From Pseudolabrys sp. (GTDB lineage: Bacteria > Pseudomonadota > Alphaproteobacteria > Rhizobiales > Xanthobacteraceae): a stretch of 64,000 bases of DNA. Position 1 is the stretch's first letter; each line of letters starts with the position of its first letter. A program made the translations under genes and the position numbers. A model generated the notes under the pieces. That model was given only the letters and a program-made list of their open reading frames with translations. It made no database searches and was not told the origin of the DNA. This document shows, in pieces, positions 11,801 through 24,287 of this stretch. The DNA is taken from NCBI GenBank assembly GCA_026125895.1, contig JAHCKG010000022.1:1-64000 (forward strand), given 5' to 3'.

Positions 11801-12790
11801 CTACTGGAGTTTGTTGGTGAACAAAGTCGCGGGGTCGAACCCGCTCTTTGTCTCCAACTCACCCAAGGCCGTCATGTAGGCCATGGTGCGTTTGGCCTGC
11901 TCGAGGTTCATCTTTCCGTCCTTGGGCCAGGTCGGGAGCATGGCCATGTAGATAGCAGCGTTGTCCTCCGCGCTCAGCCGTGGAAATTCCTTGGCCATGG
12001 CGGCGATGCCTTTCTCGGGCTCGTCATGCATGATCTTCAGCGCTTCGTCATATGCCGCGCAGACCTTGCGAAGGATGTCCGCCTTTTCAGCGATGATGTC
12101 CGGATGGGCCACCAGCGTCAGGAAGATGATGTCGTTGAAGCGCGGCTCCTCGCCCTTGATCACGTTGAGGAGCGTTCCGCCCATGTTGCCTTTCTCGACC
12201 ATCAGGCCGACCGGCTCCGCATAAACGGCGGCGTCGATCTGGTTGGTCTTGAATGCCGCAACGTAAGATCCAGGATCGCCGCCCAGATAGAGACGTTTGA
12301 CCGTGTTCATGTCGAGGCCGTAGACGCTCGCCAGCATTTCCAGCATCTTCTCGTTCGAGCCGCCGGCCGACGGAATCGCCACGCGCGCGCCTTTCAGCGC
12401 CCGAATGCGCTCCTCAACCGACTTGCCTTTGGCACGGGCCATGATTTCATTGTTTGCAATGATGTTGTTGGCGGGCGCCTTTCCGAACCGATAGAACGAT
12501 TCGACGCGCTGGCCCTTCGATGCGGCTTTCAGAACGTGTTCGAAGGTTACCTGCGTCAGGTCCACGCTCTTGGTCAGGGCGGATTGAAATGCGAGAGAGC
12601 CGCCTTTGACCTCGGTGACCTCCGCGTTCAGACCGTGCTTCTCGAAGAGCTTGTAGTATTGCGCGACGTAGAGCGGTCCCGCCCAGTAGGCGTGGCCGAT
12701 GTTCGAGATCTTCACCGTATCGAGCGCCCACGCCTTGCCCGTGAGAAGCATTGTGCTGAGAAGGAATAGTACGGCACTCAAGCGTTTCAT
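11801..12790 (-). CDS. ABC transporter periplasmic binding protein, NitT/TauT (NMT1) family
   Basis: A protein of 329 residues with a Sec signal peptide (MKRLSAVLFLLSTMLLTGKA, cleaved near WA-LD). The fold is the SsuA/TauA/NMT1 type: an early DTVKISNIGHAYWAGPLYVAQ segment, the ALTKSVDLTQVT pocket strand, VAIPSAGGSNEKM after the first lobe, and IDAAVYAEPVGLMVEKG. Relatives bind nitrate, sulfonates, pyrimidine precursors or aromatic acids. The ligand here is unknown. It is the last gene of a six-gene leftward operon with three SDRs, an ATPase and a permease. AGGAGGG lies 5 nt before ATG 12790. Confidence 0.87.
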   Translation of the reverse strand: MKRLSAVLFLLSTMLLTGKAWALDTVKISNIGHAYWAGPLYVAQYYKLFEKHGLNAEVTEVKGGSLAFQSALTKSVDLTQVTFEHVLKAASKGQRVESFYRFGKAPANNIIANNEIMARAKGKSVEERIRALKGARVAIPSAGGSNEKMLEMLASVYGLDMNTVKRLYLGGDPGSYVAAFKTNQIDAAVYAEPVGLMVEKGNMGGTLLNVIKGEEPRFNDIIFLTLVAHPDIIAEKADILRKVCAAYDEALKIMHDEPEKGIAAMAKEFPRLSAEDNAAIYMAMLPTWPKDGKMNLEQAKRTMAYMTALGELETKSGFDPATLFTNKLQ

Positions 12791-12826: not shown

Positions 12827-13663
12827 CTAGTGGCTGATGATCTTCCAGCGTTGCTGACGAACCTGGATAACTTCCACGATGTGGTTGAGGACGATCGCCA
12901 GCAAACCGATCACCACCAGCACCGCAAAGACGCCGGTCGTGTCGAAATCCGCTCCCATACGTTGAACCAGATAACCGAGGCCCTGGTTGGCCGCGATCAG
13001 TTCGCCAACGATCGCGCCTATCAGAGCGTAAGGAACGGAGATCTTGAGCCCAGCGAAGATCCAGCTCATCGCCGAGGGAATGACTACGTGTATGAGAACC
13101 TGATACGGCCGCGCCTTCATCAGGCGAACCGTGTCGATCATGTCCTGATCGACCTCGCGCACGCCGGTGAAGGTGTTATAGAACACCAGAAAGAAGACGA
13201 TGACGGTCGACAGCGCGATCTTCGATTCGAGCCCCAGGCCGAACCACAGCACCAATAGCGGCGCCAGCGCGATCTTCGGCAGCGCGTAGAATGCGAACAG
13301 GAACGGGTTGAGCAGGCGGCTCATGAAGTGCGAGACACCGAGCCAGATGCCGAGCAGGGCACCGATGAGAGAACCCAGGACAAAGCCGGCAATCGTCTCG
13401 TAGAAGGTCACCCACAAATGGGGAAAGATGTAGCCGGTAATAGTCCACTCCCAGAGGCGGACCGCGACATCAAGCGGATTGCTGATGAAGAAATTGTCCA
13501 CCAGCCGTCCGGATGCCGCCTGCCAGCACGCCAGGATGAAGAATGCCAAGCCGAATTGCCAAACCAGCAGTTGCTGGTTGCTCATTTCGTCGAGTCGGCG
13601 CTTGCGCGAAGGGCGAGTAGAGCCTGCGGGCGCGATATCGCTGGTTCCGGCGTTTGTACTCAA
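12827..13663 (-). CDS. ABC transporter permease, SsuC/TauC type
   Basis: A protein of 278 residues with about six membrane helices and the inner-membrane BPD_transp_1 fold. The coupling-helix EAA-like loop is DTVRLMKARPYQVLIHVVIPSAMSW (split across the loop). The start is TTG 13663, whose bases overlap the ATPase TGA stop (TTGA) and which has GAGGAGG 8 nt upstream. The alternative ATG at 13584 has no SD and would drop the polar N-terminal tail. The tight overlap says it is translated together with the ATPase. The substrate is unknown. Confidence 0.87.
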   Translation of the reverse strand: MSTNAGTSDIAPAGSTRPSRKRRLDEMSNQQLLVWQFGLAFFILACWQAASGRLVDNFFISNPLDVAVRLWEWTITGYIFPHLWVTFYETIAGFVLGSLIGALLGIWLGVSHFMSRLLNPFLFAFYALPKIALAPLLVLWFGLGLESKIALSTVIVFFLVFYNTFTGVREVDQDMIDTVRLMKARPYQVLIHVVIPSAMSWIFAGLKISVPYALIGAIVGELIAANQGLGYLVQRMGADFDTTGVFAVLVVIGLLAIVLNHIVEVIQVRQQRWKIISH

Positions 13664-14430
13664 AGCCGTTCCTCCTCGTATTCGAGCCGCAGGAAGTCCC
13701 AGAGCTGGTCGTAGATTTCCTTGAAGCGGGGCGAAAAGCGGACGTTCTGAACGTCGCGCGGTCGGGGCAGGTCGATTTCCTGATCCAGGATGATCCGGGA
13801 CGGCCGTCGCGTCAGGACGATCACACGATCGGAAAGGGTGATGGCTTCGACCAGATCGTGCGTTACGAGTAGAATTGTCTGCTTGTCCTCGGTCCAAAGG
13901 CGCAGCAGCAACTCGTGCATCGCGAGTTTCAACTGCGCGTCGAGGGCTCCAAAGGGCTCGTCGAGAAGGAAGGTCTCGGGCCGGTAAATCAGCATGCGGG
14001 CCAGAGCCGCGCGCTTGCGCATGCCGCCGGAAAGCTCGCTCGGATATCGCGTCTCGAAGCCATCGAGGCCGACGCGGCCGAGGATATCCGCCGCTTGACG
14101 GTGCCTATCCGCCTTGGCCTTACCTGCGAGTTCGGAGGGCAAGGCAACGTTGTCGCGCACGGTCCGCCACGGAAACAGTGTATCCTTCTGCGTCATGTAC
14201 CCGGTCGCGGTGTTGACCGAATCGACCGAACGACCGTTGTAGATGACGTCGCCGCTCGACGGCTCGTAGAGACCGGCGATCATGTGAAGCAGCGTCGATT
14301 TCCCGCAGCCGCTCGGCCCGATCAGGGACACGATGCTGCCGCGCGCGACGGTCAGATCGATATTGCGCACCGCTTCGACTGGCGCCGAGCCCTTGTCGAA
14401 AGTCTTGTGCAAGCCGCGTAGCTCGATCAT
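13660..14430 (-). CDS. ABC transporter ATP-binding protein, SsuB/TauB type
   Basis: A 256-residue ATPase. Walker A is GPSGCGKST (residues 38-46), the Q-loop lies in YMTQKDTLFPWRTVRDNV, the signature is LSGGMRKRAALAR, Walker B is TFLLDEPFGALD and the H-loop is VTHD. The FPWRTV and LDAQLKL wording is typical of the nitrate/sulfonate/taurine branch. The start is set at ATG 14430 because AGGAG lies 8 nt upstream and the match to the family begins there; a longer in-frame extension overlaps the SDR gene. It sits 11 nt after the SDR stop. Confidence 0.92.
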   Translation of the reverse strand: MIELRGLHKTFDKGSAPVEAVRNIDLTVARGSIVSLIGPSGCGKSTLLHMIAGLYEPSSGDVIYNGRSVDSVNTATGYMTQKDTLFPWRTVRDNVALPSELAGKAKADRHRQAADILGRVGLDGFETRYPSELSGGMRKRAALARMLIYRPETFLLDEPFGALDAQLKLAMHELLLRLWTEDKQTILLVTHDLVEAITLSDRVIVLTRRPSRIILDQEIDLPRPRDVQNVRFSPRFKEIYDQLWDFLRLEYEEERL

Positions 14431-14441
14431 GGGGCCGGCTC

Positions 14442-15239
14442 CTAGCTCAGCGGATAGCGGTGATATCCGCCATCGACACAAACCGTGCTGCCGGTGATGA
14501 ACGAAGCTGCGTCCGAGGCCAGGAAAACCGCGGTCGAGGCGATTTCATCCGGCTGGCCCAGCCGGCCGAGCGGGTTCGCCCGGGCGTAGCTGAAGGTCGA
14601 TGTCTTCCGATCGATCCCATGCTTGCGCATCTGCTCTTCGATGATGAAGTTCAGGAGCGGTCCTTCTACGTATTGGGGGGAAATGACGTTCAGCCGGACG
14701 TTGTCACGGGCAACGCCGTCGGAGATGCTCTTCACCATCGCAGCCTGGCCGGCATTGGTAATGCCGGAAGGCAGGCGGTCGGACTGAGGGTGCCAACCAG
14801 CCTGGCCGACAAACACCACGATCCGGCCGTCCTTCTTCTCCCGCATGCCCGGCAGCACCGCCTGAATGGCATGGAGCGTTCCAAAGATCTTTTCGTTGAT
14901 GTGCAACTGCATCTCTTCGTCGGTGAGACTTTCGACAGTGGATCGGCGGCCCGTTCCGGCCGAATAGATCAGGATATCGATAGTGCCGAAGCGCTGCTGG
15001 ATCGCTTTGACGAAATTGTTCATGGCCGACCTGTTGTCGACATTGAACGCGGCGCCCATCACGCGGGCCGGGCCGTATTCTTCGCCCAACTCGTTGACCG
15101 TACTGTCGACATTCGCCCGGTTGCGGCTGCACACGGCGACGATCGCGCCTTCGTCAAGGAGACGACGCGCTGTGGCCTTGCCAAGCAGCCCCGTCCCACC
15201 CGGCACCAGTGCGACTTTTCCCTTCAAACCAAGATCCAT
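14442..15239 (-). CDS. SDR-family protein lacking the catalytic Ser-Tyr-Lys
   Basis: A 265-residue protein with the classical SDR fold. The Rossmann start is KVALVPGGTGLLGKAT, with Pro where Thr is usual; an SAG segment and the C-terminal FITGSTVCVDGGY are recognisable. The catalytic residues are gone. The Ser strand reads VFVGQAGWHP, and the YxxxK helix reads SGITNAGQAAMVKS, with Ile for Tyr and Gly for Lys. The neighbour at 15251-16045 shows the same losses and a near-identical N-terminus (MDLGLKGKVAL), so they are duplicated paralogues. It is unlikely to be a normal NAD(P) oxidoreductase; a partner-subunit or non-redox role is possible. ATG 15239 has AGAGG upstream. Confidence 0.85.
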   Translation of the reverse strand: MDLGLKGKVALVPGGTGLLGKATARRLLDEGAIVAVCSRNRANVDSTVNELGEEYGPARVMGAAFNVDNRSAMNNFVKAIQQRFGTIDILIYSAGTGRRSTVESLTDEEMQLHINEKIFGTLHAIQAVLPGMREKKDGRIVVFVGQAGWHPQSDRLPSGITNAGQAAMVKSISDGVARDNVRLNVISPQYVEGPLLNFIIEEQMRKHGIDRKTSTFSYARANPLGRLGQPDEIASTAVFLASDAASFITGSTVCVDGGYHRYPLS

Positions 15240-15250
15240 GGCTGTGCCTC

Positions 15251-16045
15251 TTAAAAGATCATCCGTTGATAGCCGCCGTCGACATCGAAATTCGTGCCGC
15301 ATAGGAATGACGCGCGTTCGGAAGCGAGAAACGCGATGGCGTTCGCCACGTCCTCCGGCGCGCCCATGCGCCCGAGCGGAACCTTGAGGCCCCAGCCCGA
15401 CTCCTGGTGCTCCAGCGATTGCCCGAGATAGCGCTCGCCTTCGAGGTTCAATCCCTCCGTCATCGGCGTGACGATGCGGCCCGGACACACGGCGTTCACG
15501 AGTACGTTGTCCTTTGCAAAATGGTCCGACAGCGCTTTGACGAAGGCGTGTTGCGCCGCCTCGGTGACGCAGGCGCCTATCGTGTCGGCGGCCGGGACTT
15601 TGCCTTCCTGACCGATCACGACGATGAAGCGGCCGGAAGATTGCCGCCGTAGATGCGGCGCCGCCTGACGGGCCAGTTCCCAACTACCCATCACTTTGGT
15701 GCGCCAATAGGTTTCGAAAGCCGATACCGCGAGGGTGTCGATATTCCCAGGCAGGCGGGACCCGGCGTTGCTGACGACAATGTCGAGGCGGCCCAGATTG
15801 TCGACAGCAGCCGTGACCATCGCCTGGACGTCGGCAGGTTTGGCAACGTCGCCTACGACGACCGCGACGTCTTCGGCCGGCGCGTTCTCGCGTAACGCCG
15901 CTGCTGCGCTTTGCAGTTTTTTCTTGTCGCGGCCGGTGACGACGACCCTGGCACCTTCCGCAAGAAAGCGCTCTGCCGCTGCCAGCCCGATGCCGCTGCT
16001 GCCGCCCGTAATAAGTGCGACCTTTCCCTTCAATCCCAGATCCAA
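15251..16045 (-). CDS. Second SDR-family protein lacking the catalytic Ser-Tyr-Lys
   Basis: About 264 residues. The cofactor motif is canonical (ALITGGSSGIG) and NAG is present (VSNAGS), but the Ser strand reads VVIGQEGKVP and the expected YxxxK helix reads GACVTEAAQHAFVKAL, with Ala and Glu at the Tyr and Lys positions. It ends CGTNFDVDGGYQRMIF. The start is uncertain. TTG 16045 is preferred because GGAGG sits 5 nt upstream and it aligns with the MDLGLKGK start of the next gene. In-frame ATG 16057 and TTG 16084 lack an SD. It lies between the active-looking SDR (stop 16085) and its paralogue (11-nt gap). Confidence 0.8.
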   Translation of the reverse strand: MDLGLKGKVALITGGSSGIGLAAAERFLAEGARVVVTGRDKKKLQSAAAALRENAPAEDVAVVVGDVAKPADVQAMVTAAVDNLGRLDIVVSNAGSRLPGNIDTLAVSAFETYWRTKVMGSWELARQAAPHLRRQSSGRFIVVIGQEGKVPAADTIGACVTEAAQHAFVKALSDHFAKDNVLVNAVCPGRIVTPMTEGLNLEGERYLGQSLEHQESGWGLKVPLGRMGAPEDVANAIAFLASERASFLCGTNFDVDGGYQRMIF

Positions 16046-17096: not shown

Positions 17097-17291
17097 CGGG
17101 GTTGTGACCTCACTGCCGGTTCGGCGGTGTCCGGCTAATTGGGGTCGCGTTGCGGCGATGATCGAGATGTGCCCGCTCGATTGCTCGGACCGGCCTATAA
17201 CGCAGCACCCGGGCCAATCGCCGCCGTAGCCGGGGGCGCAACTTCGGAACATGGCGCGGCGCTTCTCGCAACCCAGATCAGGGGATGGACT

Positions 17292-18935
17292 TTGTCGGAA
17301 GGCGAACTTTTTGACTACATCGTGGTCGGCGCGGGAAGCGCGGGATGCGTTCTGGCGGAGCGTCTGACGGTTTCGGGCCGTCATCGCGTCCTGCTGCTGG
17401 AGGCGGGACCCGCGGATCGCAATCTGTGGATTCACGTTCCGCTGGGCTACGGCAAGCTCTTCACCAATGCTCGCTACAACTGGCTCTACCAGTCGGAGCC
17501 GGAAGCCGAACTGAACAACCGTCAGATCATCCAGCCGCGCGGCAAGGTGCTGGGTGGATCGAGCTCGATCAACGGCCTGCTGTATATCCGCGGCCAGCGC
17601 GAAGACTTCGACCACTGGCGCCAGCTCGGCAACACGGGCTGGAGTTACGACGACGTGTTGCCTTACTTTCTCCAGTCCGAGGATCAGCAGCGGCCAGGGG
17701 AAATGAACGATCACGGTCGTGGCGGGCCGCTGGCGGTGTCCGACGTCGAGACGCACCCGATCTGTGACGCCTTCATCGAGGCGGCGGAGCAGGCGGGCTT
17801 CCCGCGCAATGACGACTTCAATGGTGCGAGCCAGGAAGGGGCGGGCTACTACCAACTTACCTGCCGCGATGCCCGGCGATGTTCGACCGCGAAAGGCTAT
17901 CTGAAGCCGGCGCTGAAGCGCGCCAATCTCAGGGTGGTTTCGGAAGCCCTGGCGACGCGTGTCCTGTTCGAAGGCAAGCGCGCCGTCGGTGTGGAATATC
18001 GCCGCGATGGCCGGTTACACCAGGCGCGTGCCGCCGGCGAAGTCGTGCTAGCCGGCGGCGCATTCAACTCGCCGCAATTGCTGCAGCTTTCAGGCGTCGG
18101 ACCTGGCGACTTGCTGCGGTCGCATGGCATCGAGGTTCGGCACGAACTGCCGGGTGTCGGAGCCGACCTGCAGGATCACTTCCAGGCGCGCTTCAACTAC
18201 CGCTGCAGCGAAGCGATCACCATCAACGACATGATGGCAAGCTTGCCGCGGCAGGTCGGCGCGGCGCTCGACTATCTGTTCAACCGCAAGGGGCCGCTGA
18301 CCATAGGCGCCGGTTACGCCGGGGGCTTCTTCAAGACCGATCCCGCACTGGCGTCGCCGGACGTCCAGATCCATTTCATCCTGTTCAGTGCGGACGCCGT
18401 CGGGCAGAAGCTGCATCCGTTTCCCGGCTTTCTTTCGTCGATCTGCCAGTTGCGGCCGGACAGCCGCGGCACGGTGCGGATCAAGTCTGCCGACCCGGCG
18501 CAAGCCCCAGCGATCCAGCCCAATTATCTGTCGGCCGCGCATGATCGCGACGTGATGATCGCGGCCATGAAACTACAGCGCAGGATCATGGCGCAGCCCG
18601 CGATCAAGCGTTATATCGTCGAAGAGCTCAATCCCGGTCCGCAATGCCAGAGCGACTCGGAGTTGCTCGACTTCGCCCGCGCCAAGGGCACCACGATCTT
18701 TCATCCCACCAGCACTTGCCGCATGGGCCAGGACTCGAAGTCGGTGGTCGACGAGCGGTTGCGCGTGCGTGGCATCGAAGGTCTCCGCGTGATCGACGGC
18801 TCGATCATGCCGACCGTGGTGTCCGGAAATACCAATGCGGCAATCGTCATGATCGGCGAGAAGGGCGCGCACATGATGCTGGAGGATGCGAAGACGTCCG
18901 CGTTCTCGAAGGCTCCGACGCAACTTGCCTCATAG
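17292..18935 (+). CDS. GMC-family FAD oxidoreductase (choline dehydrogenase-like)
   Basis: A 547-residue flavoprotein alcohol dehydrogenase or oxidase. The FAD motif VVGAGSAGCVLAERL (Gly13-Gly18) is followed by the GMC signature around QPRGKVLGGSSSINGLLYIRG and by AGGAFNSPQLLQLSGVGP. The catalytic His is likely in FHPTSTCRMG and the Asn in VSGNTNAAIVM. No signal peptide is seen. TTG 17292 is chosen because AGGGGA lies 7 nt upstream and the Rossmann strand starts 7 residues later; the upstream open frame has no homologous content. A 22-nt gap to the hydrolase gene suggests co-transcription. The substrate is probably a primary alcohol and is otherwise unknown. Confidence 0.92.
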   Translation: MSEGELFDYIVVGAGSAGCVLAERLTVSGRHRVLLLEAGPADRNLWIHVPLGYGKLFTNARYNWLYQSEPEAELNNRQIIQPRGKVLGGSSSINGLLYIRGQREDFDHWRQLGNTGWSYDDVLPYFLQSEDQQRPGEMNDHGRGGPLAVSDVETHPICDAFIEAAEQAGFPRNDDFNGASQEGAGYYQLTCRDARRCSTAKGYLKPALKRANLRVVSEALATRVLFEGKRAVGVEYRRDGRLHQARAAGEVVLAGGAFNSPQLLQLSGVGPGDLLRSHGIEVRHELPGVGADLQDHFQARFNYRCSEAITINDMMASLPRQVGAALDYLFNRKGPLTIGAGYAGGFFKTDPALASPDVQIHFILFSADAVGQKLHPFPGFLSSICQLRPDSRGTVRIKSADPAQAPAIQPNYLSAAHDRDVMIAAMKLQRRIMAQPAIKRYIVEELNPGPQCQSDSELLDFARAKGTTIFHPTSTCRMGQDSKSVVDERLRVRGIEGLRVIDGSIMPTVVSGNTNAAIVMIGEKGAHMMLEDAKTSAFSKAPTQLAS

Positions 18936-18957
18936 AACGTCACGACTCGAGGAAGCA

Positions 18958-19875
18958 ATGATTGACGCAGTCAGCCGGACGATCGCAGGCGAAGAACATT
19001 GGACGAACAAAGGCGACGTCCGGTTGTTCCTCTGGAACAAGGTGGTTGGCAATGCGGCAGCCGCCAAGGGCACCATTCTCTTCGTGCACGGCTCCTCGAT
19101 GGCGTCGACACCGACTTTCGACCTGCAGGTGCCCGGCGAGCCGGATTATTCGGCCATGGATTACTTCGCCCGCCGCGGTTACGACTGCTGGTGCGTCGAC
19201 ATGGAAGGCTACGGCCGCTCGACCAAGGATCGTGACAACAACGCGCCGATCGCGCAGGGCGCAGAAGATTGCTTCGCCGCGGGCAAATACATCCAGCGCC
19301 TGCGCGCCGGGCGCAAACTGCTGCTCTATGGCGTGTCGTCGGGCGCGCTGCGCGCCGCTCTGTTCGCACAGAACCATCCCGAGATGATCGAACGGCTCGC
19401 GCTGGACGCTTTAGTGTGGACTGGAGCGGACAGCCCGACGCTCGAGCAGCGTGCCAAGAAGCTCGACGAATGGCGTTCGAAAAACCGCCGCCCGACCAGC
19501 CGTGAATTCATCCAGACCATCTTCACGCGGGACCATCCAGGCTCGGCCGAGCAGAAAGTGATCGACGCGTTCGCCGATGCGATCCTCGCGCTCGACAGCT
19601 CGGTGCCGACGGGTACGTACGTCGACATGTGCGCCAACCTTCCGGTGTGCGACCCTCGTATGATCAAGGCGCCGACCCTCGTGATGCGCGGCCAGTGGGA
19701 CGGCATCGCGAGCGAGCAGGACCTGATTGACTTCTTCCGCCTGCTGCCCAACCCGGACAAACAGTTCACCGTCATGCCCGGCGTCGCGCATGCGAGCTTC
19801 CAGAGCAAAAACTACCGGCTCGTCCTTCACATACTGGAAAGCTTCTTTGCCCAACCGTTGCCGGTTTATCCGTAA
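18958..19875 (+). CDS. Alpha/beta hydrolase
   Basis: A 305-residue alpha/beta-hydrolase-fold protein. The oxyanion segment is FVHGSSMASTPTFD, the nucleophile elbow is GVSSGA (second Ser of the GxSxG), the acid is in MRGQWDGIAS and the His is in PGVAHASFQ. The tyrosine/aromatic-rich cap suggests a small organic ester or a C-C bond substrate. No signal peptide is seen. ATG 18958 has GAGGAAG 3 nt upstream, and the gene follows the GMC oxidoreductase by 22 nt, so the two probably act in one pathway. Confidence 0.88.
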   Translation: MIDAVSRTIAGEEHWTNKGDVRLFLWNKVVGNAAAAKGTILFVHGSSMASTPTFDLQVPGEPDYSAMDYFARRGYDCWCVDMEGYGRSTKDRDNNAPIAQGAEDCFAAGKYIQRLRAGRKLLLYGVSSGALRAALFAQNHPEMIERLALDALVWTGADSPTLEQRAKKLDEWRSKNRRPTSREFIQTIFTRDHPGSAEQKVIDAFADAILALDSSVPTGTYVDMCANLPVCDPRMIKAPTLVMRGQWDGIASEQDLIDFFRLLPNPDKQFTVMPGVAHASFQSKNYRLVLHILESFFAQPLPVYP

Positions 19876-19949
19876 CCGGGAAGACAACGCGTATCGTCAG
19901 CGCGATCTTTGCCGTCAACGGCGGCAAGGTAATGCGACCGAGGTGGCGG

Positions 19950-20771
19950 TTAATCGGGTAGCGGGCTCTCGGCACCTGCGACCTGCGCGCCGATCTTGTC
20001 GGCGCAACCGCGGACAATTGCGGGCAGGCGCGCCTCGACAGTCTTGTCATAGCGATATTTAGGAACGCTGACGCTGATGCCACCCACCGGCATTCCGGCG
20101 CCATTGAGGATGGCGGCGCCGACGCAGCGGATCTCGAGCTCCGTCTCTTCGCGATCGAGCGAGTAGCCGCGCTTCTGCGTGGCCTTGAGTTCGGCTTCCA
20201 GCGCCTTTCGCTGCGTGATGGTGTTCGGCGTGTAGCGCTTGAACGCGATCTTGCCGAGGATGTCGTCGCGAGCCGCTTGCGGCAGGGCCGCGAGATAGGC
20301 TTTGCCGACTGAACTCGAATAGAGCGTAATGCGCGTGCCGATGCGCGAGGTCATGCGCACCGCCTGCGGGCTCTCCAGCTTGTCGATGTAGACCATTTCG
20401 AGGCCGCTCGGCACGGCCAGATGGACCGTCTCGCCCGTCTCGTTGCGCAGCTTCTCGATGAGCGGATGAGCCACGGTGCGCAAATCAAACGAGGCCCAGC
20501 TTCGCGACGCGAGGTTGATCAGCCGTGGGCCCAGTACGAACTTGTTGCCGGGTTGTCCTTCGGCGATCAAGCCTTCGGCGCGAAGAGCGTCGACGATGCG
20601 ATAAACGGTAGCCCGAGGCAGTTTCACCGTCTTGCAGAGTTCCGAGATGGCGTATTCGCCGGGCGCATCGCCGATGGTCTGAAGTACGGTCATGAACTTC
20701 GTAAAAGCCGCGGTCCCAGGTACTTTTGGAGCCGCGTGCGGCGCTCGACTTTTCACAGGTCGTGTTGTCAT
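19950..20771 (-). CDS. IclR-family transcriptional regulator
   Basis: A 273-residue regulator. The N-terminal winged helix (KFMTVLQTIGDAPGEYAISEL, recognition helix PRATVYRIVDALRAEGLI) is followed by a wing and by the IclR effector domain (IEKLRNETGETVHLAV, SSVGKAYLA, GYSLDREETELEIRCVGAAI, ISVSVPKYRY). Family members sense small organic acids, often repressing a neighbouring catabolic operon. The start is taken at ATG 20771; upstream in-frame ATGs exist but would add a Cys/Arg-rich tail unlike the family. It converges on the GMC/hydrolase pair and is the likely local regulator of this block. Confidence 0.9.
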   Translation of the reverse strand: MTTRPVKSRAPHAAPKVPGTAAFTKFMTVLQTIGDAPGEYAISELCKTVKLPRATVYRIVDALRAEGLIAEGQPGNKFVLGPRLINLASRSWASFDLRTVAHPLIEKLRNETGETVHLAVPSGLEMVYIDKLESPQAVRMTSRIGTRITLYSSSVGKAYLAALPQAARDDILGKIAFKRYTPNTITQRKALEAELKATQKRGYSLDREETELEIRCVGAAILNGAGMPVGGISVSVPKYRYDKTVEARLPAIVRGCADKIGAQVAGAESPLPD

Positions 20772-21607
20772 CAGTTCGGTCTGGAGCCTCGGCCACTCTG
20801 ACGGACGAATATACACCGTTGCCTGCATTGTGGAAACGTTGCCCATTGGGGCGCCCGGCGGCGAACCGCACCCCGTTCGCCTGCAGCTGCAGCCACGGCC
20901 CGGAAGGCATATTGCGCTGGTCCGCATAGGGGACCTGCTGCTTCGGGCGCCGGCCGGCCGCTCTCGCCGCTAGGGGCGGCTCGCTCTCCGGCAGAAACGC
21001 GCCGCCAGGATGTACCTCGAACGGATTGAGCGCGCCGCCGGCGATCACCATGGCGATGTTCGCCAGGCGACGAGGCCTGCGCTGTCGCGGGCGACGGTGG
21101 AGCTCATGCGCGGCAAATTGGCGCTCGCTGCAACCGTGTCCTGCGGACGACGGCCGTTAACGGGAAGGTTGCGCCAGCATGCGCTGCGTCACGACCTTGC
21201 CTGTGATGAAACGGAAAGCTGAAGGACGAACCGGGGCAATCAAACAAACGTTGCTGCGTCAGGTATCAGGGCAGACTCCGTCCAGCGAAATCTCGCCGAA
21301 CTCCATTGCTGCGCACAGTCGCACAGTAATGGCGAAGCTGTTCCCAGCGCCTGGCGTTAAGATCGTCGGTTCTGTGCGGCGGCTGCATAGTATTTCGGCG
21401 CCGATCACCTCAGGCGCGCATCGCTATCTATTCCGTCATCGCTTGGCCGAATTCCCTGGGCTCTCGAATACGTTCCGCAGTCGAAAAGCCGATCGCGCTG
21501 CGCGCGCGTACTGCAGCGGGCAAAACGGGCAACGCGCACCTTCCGATACGCACTTCGCCCAAAGATGAGCGCGGCGGGCCGGATGGCTCAGCCAGCAAAC
21601 AGCCTAG
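20772..21607. other. Gene-poor region between the IclR and GntR regulators
   Basis: About 840 bases with only short frames on both strands, none with a recognisable family, a good SD or consistent codon bias. The leftward frame ending upstream of the IclR gene starts MVIAGGALNPFEVHPGGAFLP, which looks protein-like but is broken just upstream. This may be the remnant of a lost gene. The IclR promoter must lie in the first part. No RNA gene or transposon end is visible. Confidence 0.45.
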
Positions 21608-21664: not shown

Positions 21665-22372
21665 TTGCTGAAAGCGCATGCCTATCAGTTGATCAAGCAG
21701 CGTCTGTTCGACCTTGATCTCGTGTCCGGGCAGTTCGTCAGCCAAAAGCAGATCGTGGAGCTCATTGATTTCCCGCTGGGGCCTGTCCGCGAGGCGATGC
21801 TGCAACTACAAGCGGAAGGCCTCGTCGAGATATTCCCCCAACGCGGAATTCAGATCACCCCTGTCACAGTCGAGATGGTGCGCGATCTTTTCGGCTTGCG
21901 CCGATTGATCGAGCCGCCGGGGATCAAGGCGTTGGCGCGCACCGGCGATCTGGCTGCTTTGAAGGAGTTGCGCCGCGCAACCAAAGAGGCGCTTCAGAAA
22001 GAAAAGAGCGGCGAGGTCAAGCCGGTTTCAAATCACACCTTCCAGGTGGATCAGCGGCTGCACGAAATGGCGATTGACGCCCTCGACAACAAACTGGTCC
22101 GCGAAATTTATCGCGTGCAGCAGGATCGTATCCTCCTGATCCGTCTGAACATCCGGCCCTGGGCGACTCAGGAGCCCGGTCTCGTCGACCATCTGCACAT
22201 TCTCGACGCGCTTTGCCGGCGCGATGCTGCGGGCGCAACTGCGTCTTTGTTGCGGCACTTGAAAAATGCCGAACAAGCCGCACTCGACGCTCTCGCTCGA
22301 TCGCCGCACATCAAGACAACTCTGCCGAGGGCAGCAAGCAACGGAACACGACCTGCAGCAGTACAAACGTAA
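21665..22372 (+). CDS. GntR-family regulator, FCD subfamily
   Basis: A 235-residue regulator. The N-terminal winged helix (YQLIKQRLFDLDLVSGQFVSQ, PLGPVREAMLQLQAEGLVEI, PQRGIQITPV) is followed by an all-helical FCD domain. The metal/ligand ligands Asp and His are in FQVDQRLHEMAID and the later His in LVDHLHILDALCRRD. FCD regulators usually bind carboxylic acids and repress the adjacent operon. It starts at TTG 21665 with AGGGAG 9 nt upstream. It is followed after 26 nt by an ABC binding-protein gene, so it is probably co-transcribed with, and controls, this transporter. Confidence 0.9.
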   Translation: MLKAHAYQLIKQRLFDLDLVSGQFVSQKQIVELIDFPLGPVREAMLQLQAEGLVEIFPQRGIQITPVTVEMVRDLFGLRRLIEPPGIKALARTGDLAALKELRRATKEALQKEKSGEVKPVSNHTFQVDQRLHEMAIDALDNKLVREIYRVQQDRILLIRLNIRPWATQEPGLVDHLHILDALCRRDAAGATASLLRHLKNAEQAALDALARSPHIKTTLPRAASNGTRPAAVQT

Positions 22373-22398
22373 ACATCTTGAACGAGGGGGTTGAGAAA

Positions 22399-23475
22399 AT
22401 GTCACGCGTTTCTGAACAGCTTGCTCACAGACACTGCCAGGCACTTGACACGAACATCACGCGCAGAACCTTCTCGATATCTGCTTTATCGGCGATCGCG
22501 GTCGCGGCGGGCGTCGGGGCCGCAAAGTCGGCGACGACGACGATCAAATACGGCCACACGTCCGGCATCCATGAACTGGGGCAATACGGCTTGCCTGATG
22601 CGTTGCCGTCATCGACGGGTATCGAGTGGGTGGACTTCGGGCAGATTGGTACTGGCCGTCTTGCCGCCATGACTCGCGGCTTATGCGACGCGATGACGAC
22701 GGCGAACACCTATGTGATCAGCGGCCGGGCTGAAGGCGTCGCCATAACGGGCATCTGCGGGATGGCCGGCGGTGGGCAGGCGCTCGTCGTGCGGGAAGAT
22801 CGAGGCATCAGGAAATTCGAGGACCTGAAGGGCAAGAAGATCGCGACCGCACGATTCTCCAGCTCGCACGTGATGCTGATGAGCCTGTTGCGAGCCATCG
22901 GGCTGGATCCGGTGAAGGACGTCACCATCGTCGATATCGGGCAGCCGGCGGCATTCAATGTGCTGTTGGAGAAGGGCGACGTCGACGCCGGCCTGCTTTG
23001 GGAGCCGAATGTCACAATCGCTTCAGCGCGCCCGGGCTTGCGCAAATTCGATCTCGATCGCTTTTTCAGTCTGACGTGGAAGACGCACAGCGGAACCTAC
23101 GTCCTGCAGAAGTTGATCGATGAAAATCGCGAGGTCGTGCAGAACATTGTCACGGCATCAGTGAAGGCCACCGAAGATTTCAAGAAGAATCCGGAGAAAT
23201 GGGCTAAGTTCGCTGAGCGCTACACGGCTCAGCCCCGGCCAATCATCGAAGAGTCGATGAAGAACTGTCACCTGCGCAATGATCACGACCTGACGATGAC
23301 GTACCGCTGCGCGGAGACGATGTTTGAACTGGGCATCGTCAAGAAAGACGTGACGGCGGAGATGGAAACCGCGTTCGACTACAGTTTCCTGACCAAAGCC
23401 ACCGGAAAGACCAAGGAGCAATTGGGCTTCGTTTCTTACGCCGATTACAAGGCGGGAAAGAAGTCGGTCCTGTGA
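22399..23475 (+). CDS. ABC transporter binding protein, NMT1/TauA type, Tat-exported
   Basis: 358 residues. The N-terminus carries a twin-arginine signal (ITRRTFSISALSAIAVAAG) ending near AKSA, so folded export by Tat is likely. The mature part has the NitT/TauT-type two-lobe pattern: GRLAAMTRGLCDAMTTAN, LKGKKIATARFSSSH, KDVTIVDIGQPAAFNVLLEKGDVDAGLLWEPNV. It differs from the other binding protein in this window, so it is probably a different ligand system. ATG 22399 has GAGGGGG about 8 nt upstream. The stop overlaps the start of the next gene (GTGA). Confidence 0.85.
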   Translation: MSRVSEQLAHRHCQALDTNITRRTFSISALSAIAVAAGVGAAKSATTTIKYGHTSGIHELGQYGLPDALPSSTGIEWVDFGQIGTGRLAAMTRGLCDAMTTANTYVISGRAEGVAITGICGMAGGGQALVVREDRGIRKFEDLKGKKIATARFSSSHVMLMSLLRAIGLDPVKDVTIVDIGQPAAFNVLLEKGDVDAGLLWEPNVTIASARPGLRKFDLDRFFSLTWKTHSGTYVLQKLIDENREVVQNIVTASVKATEDFKKNPEKWAKFAERYTAQPRPIIEESMKNCHLRNDHDLTMTYRCAETMFELGIVKKDVTAEMETAFDYSFLTKATGKTKEQLGFVSYADYKAGKKSVL

Positions 23476-24287
23476 CGGTCAAGTCATCCTGGACGAAGGT
23501 GCGGGTCGATCCGGTGGCCTTCTTGCTGCCGGTCGGTCTGCTCGTAACCTGGTGGGCGGCGGCGCGCTTTGGGCTGTTCCATAACCCGTTGCTGCCGACC
23601 ATTGACGATGTCACGACCGCTACGCGCGAATGGATATTCGGCACGAACCAACGGTACTTCTTCTCCGGAACATGGTGACGCGATCTGATAGGCAGCGTCG
23701 TGCGCGTCTTTGTCGGTCTTGTGGTCGGATCGGCACTGGCGATCTTTGTCGGCATGTTGGTCGGTTGGTATTCCATCGTCGAACGCGTATTCGATCCGGT
23801 GATCCAGATACTGCGGCCGATCCCCAAAACCGCCTTTCTGCCCTTCGCGATCCTCATTTTCGGAATCGGAAACCCACCTGCGCTTTTTCTGACGATCTAC
23901 GGCGTATTCTTGACGGTGTACATTCAGATTATCGTCGGAGTGAAGCTCGTTCCGCGAGATTTGAAACGGGCAGCGCGCATGCTCGGAGCGAAGGACAGGG
24001 ACATCCTGCTCCGAGTCGTCCTGCCGGCCGCGCTTCCTTCCATATTTGCAGGAGTCCGCGTCGGCGCCGCATACGCGTGGCTCATCCTTATCCTGGCTGA
24101 AATGCTCGCTGTCGGAGAAGGCTTCGGCTTCGTCCTGTGGCGCGGCTACGAGAACTTGCGCATGGATGTCGTGGTCATGTGCATGTTCTGCATCGGCATG
24201 TTCGGATACCTGACCGATCGCATCATTGTCGCAGGCTTGGGCCGGCAGCTTAGATGGGCGCAGAGCGCCGCCGAGACGAGGTTCTGA
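23472..24287 (+). pseudogene. ABC permease (SsuC/TauC type) interrupted by an in-frame TGA
   Basis: The frame starts at GTG 23472, overlapping the stop of the binding protein. It reads 68 codons to FFSGTW and then meets TGA at 23676-23678. The same frame continues directly with RDLIGSVVRV and a complete permease body (segments AIFVGMLVGW, PKTAFLPFAILIFG, EAA-type loop KRAARMLGAKDRDI) to 24287. No frameshift is involved; one base change explains it. Restarting at GTG 23700 would give 195 residues without the first helix. Either the gene is inactivated, the product is split, or the base is a sequencing error. The neighbouring binding protein and ATPase are intact. Confidence 0.85.

Follow-up and report, generated by a model that had tools for sequence, protein, structure and literature searches.

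On a stretch of 64,000 nucleotides from Pseudolabrys sp. (contig JAHCKG010000022.1, positions 1 to 64,000; hereafter the window), two adjacent genes encode short-chain dehydrogenase/reductase (SDR) proteins with an atypical active site, which we name SDR-a and SDR-b. They belong to a minus-strand run composed, in order, of the canonical neighbor SDR-c, SDR-b, SDR-a, an ATP-binding cassette (ABC) ATPase, a permease, and an NMT1/SsuA-like binding protein (Table 1). SDR-b and SDR-a are spaced by 11 bases, and so are SDR-a and the ABC ATPase. Divergent from this run, a GMC oxidoreductase and an alpha/beta hydrolase are encoded on the plus strand, followed by an IclR regulator on the minus strand. 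The original prediction had placed an intact SDR and an ABC importer beside the pair; both are present, the importer being of the NitT/TauT type.

Table 1. Genes of the SDR locus and its surroundings (ORF, open reading frame).
Gene product	Position	Strand	Remarks
SDR-a, 265 aa	14442..15239	-	K117/G145/S158/N162 instead of N/S/Y/K; AerF best PDB match, E 1.2e-35
SDR-b, 268 aa	15251..16057	-	K/G/A/E tetrad; AerF best PDB match, E 9.7e-40
SDR-c, 245 aa	16085..16822	-	canonical N/S/Y/K
ABC importer ATPase, NitT/TauT/Ssu type	13660..14430	-	Pfam ABC_tran; start set at ATG
ABC importer permease	12827..13663	-	Pfam BPD_transp_1; start picked within ORF 12827-13897
Periplasmic substrate-binding protein, NMT1/SsuA-like	11801..12790	-	Pfam NMT1; SsuA_fam under cut-off
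GMC oxidoreductase	17232..18935	+	Pfam GMC_oxred_N/C; start picked within ORF 17139-18935
Alpha/beta hydrolase, weakly PcaD-like	18958..19875	+	start picked within ORF 18886-19875
IclR-family regulator	19950..20927	-	BhcR/KdgR/PcaR-like, under cut-offs

By their Rossmann fold and adh_short/adh_short_C2 match, SDR-a and SDR-b are members of the classical SDR superfamily. Both frames are open and the fold is kept, as had been predicted: Pfam adh_short_C2 scores 146 bits on SDR-a and 159 bits on SDR-b, and the AlphaFold2 models reach a mean predicted local distance difference test (pLDDT) of 96.1 and 95.5, respectively. SDR-b starts either at ATG 16057 or at TTG 16045; the ORF of its homologue in the related genome G002 likewise begins with TTG.

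The active-site tetrad was read from a MAFFT alignment with AerF, BbsD, Q9HYA2, APE0912, and sorbose reductase, and again from a hidden Markov model (HMM) alignment. BbsD causes a gap at the Ser column of the MAFFT alignment; the register is fixed by the gap-free segment between Ser and Lys and by the HMM alignment. At the Asn/Ser/Tyr/Lys positions, both alignments give K/G/S/N for SDR-a, K/G/A/E for SDR-b, and N/S/Y/K for SDR-c. Neither member of the pair thus has the Asn-Ser-Tyr-Lys tetrad with its YxxxK motif, and the predicted absence of Ser, Tyr, and Lys holds. The Tyr and Lys positions are taken by Ser158 and Asn162 in SDR-a (SGITN) and by Ala and Glu in SDR-b (ACVTE). YxxxK had originally been placed at ITNAG and VTEAA, which is two residues off and is ruled out by the ungapped alignment from the Ser position. 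No Ser, Tyr, or Lys occurs at a shifted place within the ungapped Ser-to-Lys stretch of either protein. While the triad is indeed erased, the original prediction overlooked that the helix-4 Asn is replaced by Lys in both proteins (K117 in SDR-a, K121 in SDR-b). SDR-a therefore carries the AerF-like K/G/x/N tetrad in full, and SDR-b carries K/G/A with Glu replacing Asn; in the SDR-b homologue of G002, this position is Asn.

This Lys/Asn pattern is retained across six divergent lineages (a, b, d, e, a Burkholderiales group, and AerF) and is not a local loss; d and e denote further SDRs of the Lys type. To survey it, we combined SDRs from the window, its relatives, the window genome, and a scan with two generic SDR patterns in an HMM alignment of 169 sequences, from which 14 duplicate loci were omitted and no match was dropped before counting. 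The scan yielded 80 loci with 26-34% identity to SDR-a, which mainly form a background set; a Lys-type SDR occurs in only 6 of them. The canonical N/S/Y/K tetrad is found in 116 of the 169 SDRs. Lys occupies the Asn position in 36, none of which has the Tyr or the Lys of YxxxK; at the latter position they carry Asn (33/36), Arg (2), or Glu (1). Among the other 133 SDRs, Tyr is present in 127 and Asn stands at the Lys position in one. The set is biased toward relatives of the queries, as a, b, and d account for 28 of the 36 Lys-type rows, so that these counts are not independent events. Within the window genome, three of 41 aligned SDRs are of the Lys type, namely a, b, and e. Four other SDR matches in this genome (L111, L114, L134, and L135, on contigs C23 and C1) have one stop codon each within the matched stretch; the SDR-c match, which runs past its own gene stop, was flagged as well, and these stops may be equally trivial.

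Most Lys-type SDRs also retain the motifs of cofactor binding. An Arg after strand 2, which favors NADP in SDRs, occurs in all 36 of them compared to 45 of the 133 others, and TGxxxG[IL]G is present in 33 of the 36. The three exceptions are the b protein of G024 (SGGTSGIG) and the SDR-a proteins of the window (PGGTGLLG) and of G002 (PGGTGLIG). The latter two also have YSAG in place of NNAG. SDR-b of the window is intact in both its glycine motif (TGGSSGIG) and the Arg after strand 2. The more general TGxxxGxG is thus found in SDR-b but not in SDR-a of the window, and in 11 of the 12 other SDR-a homologues, G002 being the exception. As a side observation, the glycine-rich cofactor loop is lost in only two of 13 SDR-a proteins (window 14442-15239 and locus L012 2145-2942 of G002). 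These two proteins sit on a long branch, yet their dN/dS is low (0.085).

The closest known structure is that of AerF, which was crystallized with NADPH and 4-hydroxyphenylpyruvate (6jhb). In PDB sequence searches, AerF ranks first for SDR-a, SDR-b, and the A1 profile (202.6 bits vs 162.5 for the next match), and Foldseek likewise puts it first for the SDR-a model, the one model searched. VIA-align 2 does not separate AerF from canonical SDRs. BacG (YwfH) is among the matches in both the PDB sequence searches and Foldseek.

In a quick tree from all columns (83 rows, without six near-copies, sequences shorter than 220 aa, and the canonical SDRs of other genomes), 29 K/G-type rows including AerF group together with an SH-aLRT (Shimodaira-Hasegawa-like approximate likelihood ratio test) support of 92. 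A second tree of 49 rows was built after removal of the tetrad columns and their direct neighbors. Here, a and b are sisters (93/77), while d, also K/G/S/N, falls outside them within a moderately supported a+b+d group (87/85). A clade of 37 rows (96/91) includes AerF, Q9HYA2, APE0912, and sorbose reductase, and the K/G type as a single clade is neither recovered nor rejected (approximately unbiased test, p-AU 0.18). Because d lies outside a+b, the triad was most likely lost before the a/b duplication, one of the two options proposed from the sequences. Neither the N-terminus, which the original prediction noted as shared, nor the tetrad pattern is private to the pair: the MDLGLKGKV common to SDR-a and SDR-b has counterparts in AerF (MDLGLKDKV) and sorbose reductase (MDMGISGKV), and the tetrad extends over the six lineages.

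SDR-a and SDR-b are under purifying selection. Between the window and G002, the ratio of nonsynonymous to synonymous substitution rates (dN/dS) is 0.085 for SDR-a, 0.137 for SDR-b, and 0.148 for SDR-c, rough values as dS is near 1; across other pairs of relatives it ranges from 0.042 to 0.120. The pair is moreover constant. Besides the window, we found 12 distinct loci, eleven by searches with SDR-a and one (L105) by a search with SDR-b, and in all 12 SDR-a has an SDR-b homologue as its immediate neighbor on the same strand. The pair thus behaves as a unit with both genes intact and constrained, in line with the original prediction. SDR-c, which had been offered as the active partner after the BbsC/BbsD model, is not supported in that role. 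The gene order c-b-a is restricted to the window and G002, the only places where SDR-c adjoins the pair, and SDR-c was rejected as a conserved partner. In the other 11 of the 12 loci, a and b are accompanied by d instead, either in the same run or divergent. The d tetrad is K/G/S/N in 11 of 11 loci, and in the last three loci read, all nine SDRs are K/G/S/N. No d orthologue was seen elsewhere in the 82%-complete window assembly, where the best match outside the pair (37%) is an e-type SDR on contig C23. This Lys-type e (L019 7999-8817, plus strand; K/G/P/N) is preceded by an alpha/beta hydrolase and followed by a Peripla_BP_6 binding protein and ABC ATPases; e homologues stand beside ABC genes in L015 and L025 as well, as judged by BLAST or by eye.

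SDR-a homologues are thinly spread. They occur in eight of 60 relatives at 1e-50 (window genome included), in seven of 42 other genomes of the genus at 1e-55 (8/43 with the window), and in three of 396 other genomes of the order at the same threshold (4/397 with the window); none was found in 384 other genomes of the class at E 1e-60. These low counts make the pair patchy. For SDR-b, homologues occur in three of 198 genomes of the family at 1e-60, window included. Among 72,556 plasmid records, one holds an SDR-a homologue (1e-50), the mobilizable pSM-1 of Skermanella mucosa, with transposase genes nearby. This copy (L101) lies between transposase genes at 52-1772 and 18807-20821, which agrees with the scattered occurrence of the cluster.

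Of nine other loci for which wider surroundings were read, eight have ABC genes after the pair, G002 being the exception. There, on a contig of 5.6 kb, a TctC-type receptor (L012 3429-4400, plus strand) follows the c-b-a run in the place expected for the ABC ATPase, and the transporter may accordingly be exchangeable. In the window, the ATPase resembles SaoA, NtrCD, and TauB and the permease SaoP, TauC, and SsuC in NCBIfam, with every match under cut-off. Nearby on the plus strand (22393-24287), another NMT1-like binding protein is encoded together with an ORF like the permease of the operon, preceded by a GntR regulator (21665-22372). These transporter genes are of the same class as the importer of the operon and possibly handle a related substrate. 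The divergent GMC oxidoreductase is a possible pathway neighbor.

Hydrolases recur around the clusters. In L018, the gene right after that of the binding protein encodes a homologue (48%) of the window alpha/beta hydrolase, and an alpha/beta hydrolase with the same Pfam families occupies this place on the Skermanella plasmid. Further neighbors are metallo-beta-lactamase (MBL)-fold hydrolases, of which the one scanned with NCBIfam is nearest to the lactonase AidB, an Amidohydro_2 protein nearest to 4-sulfomuconolactone hydrolase, a dienelactone-hydrolase-family protein, other alpha/beta hydrolases, and the TctC receptor. Their Pfam matches pass the cut-offs; NCBIfam, which is more specific, gives only matches below threshold. 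The hydrolases point to carboxylates or lactones as the substrate class.

Judging from the sequences, we favor the pair as AerF-like NADPH-dependent ene-reductases for an imported unsaturated carboxylate, a reading to which we give about an even chance. Catalytic erasure appears too strong a description; more likely, the active site has been rebuilt in a form shared with an NADPH-binding reductase. In the AerF-like branch, the tetrad now reads Lys/Gly/(Ser, Ala, Gly, or Pro)/Asn, with Lys in place of the helix-4 Asn and Asn (Glu in SDR-b of the window) in place of the helix-5 Lys. In the canonical tetrad, Asn and Lys are linked through a water, which makes an exchange of the two plausible. As substrate, we infer a carboxylate taken up by the importer, probably derived from a lactone that lactonase-like hydrolases would first open or trim. 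NADPH would supply a hydride for the beta carbon of a conjugated C=C-C=O, a transfer that in principle needs no Tyr. The relocated Lys would hold the carbonyl or enolate and donate the proton, so that Tyr could be dispensed with. SDR-a and SDR-b possibly form a heteromer; in the window lineage, SDR-a, with its eroded glycine loop, may now serve mainly as partner subunit of SDR-b. We advance the full combination of these ideas only tentatively and regard it as rather unlikely as a whole: Lys and Asn would have been swapped between the helices, the helix-4 Lys serving the ribose and/or substrate protonation without Tyr, and the proteins would form an obligate a/b heteromeric ene-reductase for the catabolism of an imported, lactone-derived unsaturated acid, to which SDR-a of the window lineage would contribute by shaping the site or the assembly without binding cofactor.

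Other readings place the pair closer to conventional SDR chemistry or further away from catalysis. The proteins could be substrate-assisted carbonyl reductases or dehydrogenases that interconvert C=O and CH-OH with NADP(H), drawing the proton from the substrate or from Ser, Asn, or water, as proposed for SimC7 and BcSDR. SimC7 (Ser-Ile-His) reportedly reduces a ketone by substrate assistance without Tyr and Lys, and BcSDR has Leu in place of Tyr; the cofactor motifs retained by most Lys-type SDRs would suit such chemistry, too. However, SimC7 and BcSDR keep Ser, and BcSDR also Lys, while here all three residues are gone. The new Lys is moreover paired with Asn opposite in 33 of 36 cases, and AerF is named a double-bond reductase, which leaves carbonyl chemistry rather improbable. 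The pair might instead use the SDR fold as the scaffold of an isomerase, hydratase, or lyase that acts on the imported compound without redox chemistry. This reading would account for the loss of the redox tetrad and agree with the hydrolases in the surroundings. We consider it very unlikely, given the Arg after strand 2 in every Lys-type SDR, TGxxxG[IL]G in nearly all of them, and the naming of AerF as NADPH-dependent.

Alternatively, SDR-a, and perhaps SDR-b, could be pseudoenzymes in the manner of BbsC, stabilizing or tuning an active SDR within a heterotetramer. BbsCD is described as a heterotetrameric SDR, the a and b genes adjoin in all 12 loci, and neither TGxxxGxG nor NNAG is left in SDR-a of the window and of G002. 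In 11 of the 12 further loci, however, the pair has no canonical SDR-c next to it, and SDR-b keeps its cofactor motifs while AerF binds NADPH with the same tetrad, so that we judge this possibility unlikely. The eroded glycine motif of SDR-a might also be taken as the onset of decay into pseudogenes remaining in the operon. This is extremely improbable, as dN/dS of both genes is below that of SDR-c, the frames contain no stops, and the pair is kept in all 12 other loci; decay was rejected on the dN/dS values.

The pair matters beyond this locus. Annotation treats proteins of this type as ordinary SDR oxidoreductases, the Skermanella record being an example, and anyone reading the sequence would judge them inactive. 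The Lys/Asn exchange shared with an NADPH-bound crystallized relative suggests a second, Tyr-free SDR chemistry. Further, the constant pairing offers a bacterial case of a paralogue that is perhaps turning from enzyme into partner. In open-licence literature, searched by titles and the starts of abstracts without the importer as a search subject, we recognized no paper describing this SDR pair.

Among known systems, the pair is most similar to AerF of Microcystis aeruginosa (PDB 6jh7, 6jha, and 6jhb), which has K/G/S/N like SDR-a, an MDLGL N-terminus, an SGxxNAA motif, and classical SDR length, with about 30% identity to SDR-a and 32% to SDR-b. AerF is not known to us to come as two SDRs encoded side by side next to an importer. 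It is described as an active NADPH-dependent double-bond reductase, and its gene, in contrast to the pair, belongs to the biosynthesis of aeruginosin, a peptide. Q9HYA2 of P. aeruginosa (3lf1/3lf2) and APE0912 of Aeropyrum (2z1n) also have neither the catalytic Tyr nor Lys, and Q9HYA2 shares the Lys at the Asn position, but both carry Arg at the Lys position and keep Ser. Both presumably fall into cd05344 of CDD. The title of entry 3lf2 names an atypical catalytic site and an NADPH-bound state.

BbsC of anaerobic toluene degradation is said to be without active-site residues. With BbsD, it forms a heterotetramer of two SDRs, according to the title of entry 7pcs. BbsD has the regular N/S/Y/K tetrad and branches among the canonical SDRs of the tree, whereas in the pair conserved here neither member is typical; a conserved neighborhood of one canonical and one atypical SDR, as in BbsCD, is not found, since SDR-c is not conserved. 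In PRISE/VEP1 proteins (PmMOR, iridoid synthase), the usual Lys is likewise lost and a new, strictly conserved Lys appears elsewhere. This Lys is part of motif 5 rather than at the Asn position, the proteins are thought to derive from extended SDRs, and Tyr179 is retained in many of them and absent in others. In PmMOR, enal reduction is lost in the K147A and K147M mutants, and the authors of that work propose Lys as the proton donor; they also report that Lys mutants of the related CrIS retained full or partial activity when studied by others. SimC7 resembles the pair as an active SDR without catalytic Tyr and Lys, but differs in being an extended SDR with an I/LxxxH motif, a retained Ser, and a ketone substrate. 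SDR-a and SDR-b are of a kind already known; what sets them apart as a variant is their constant pairing, the gene cluster around them, and the erosion of the cofactor loop in one of the two.
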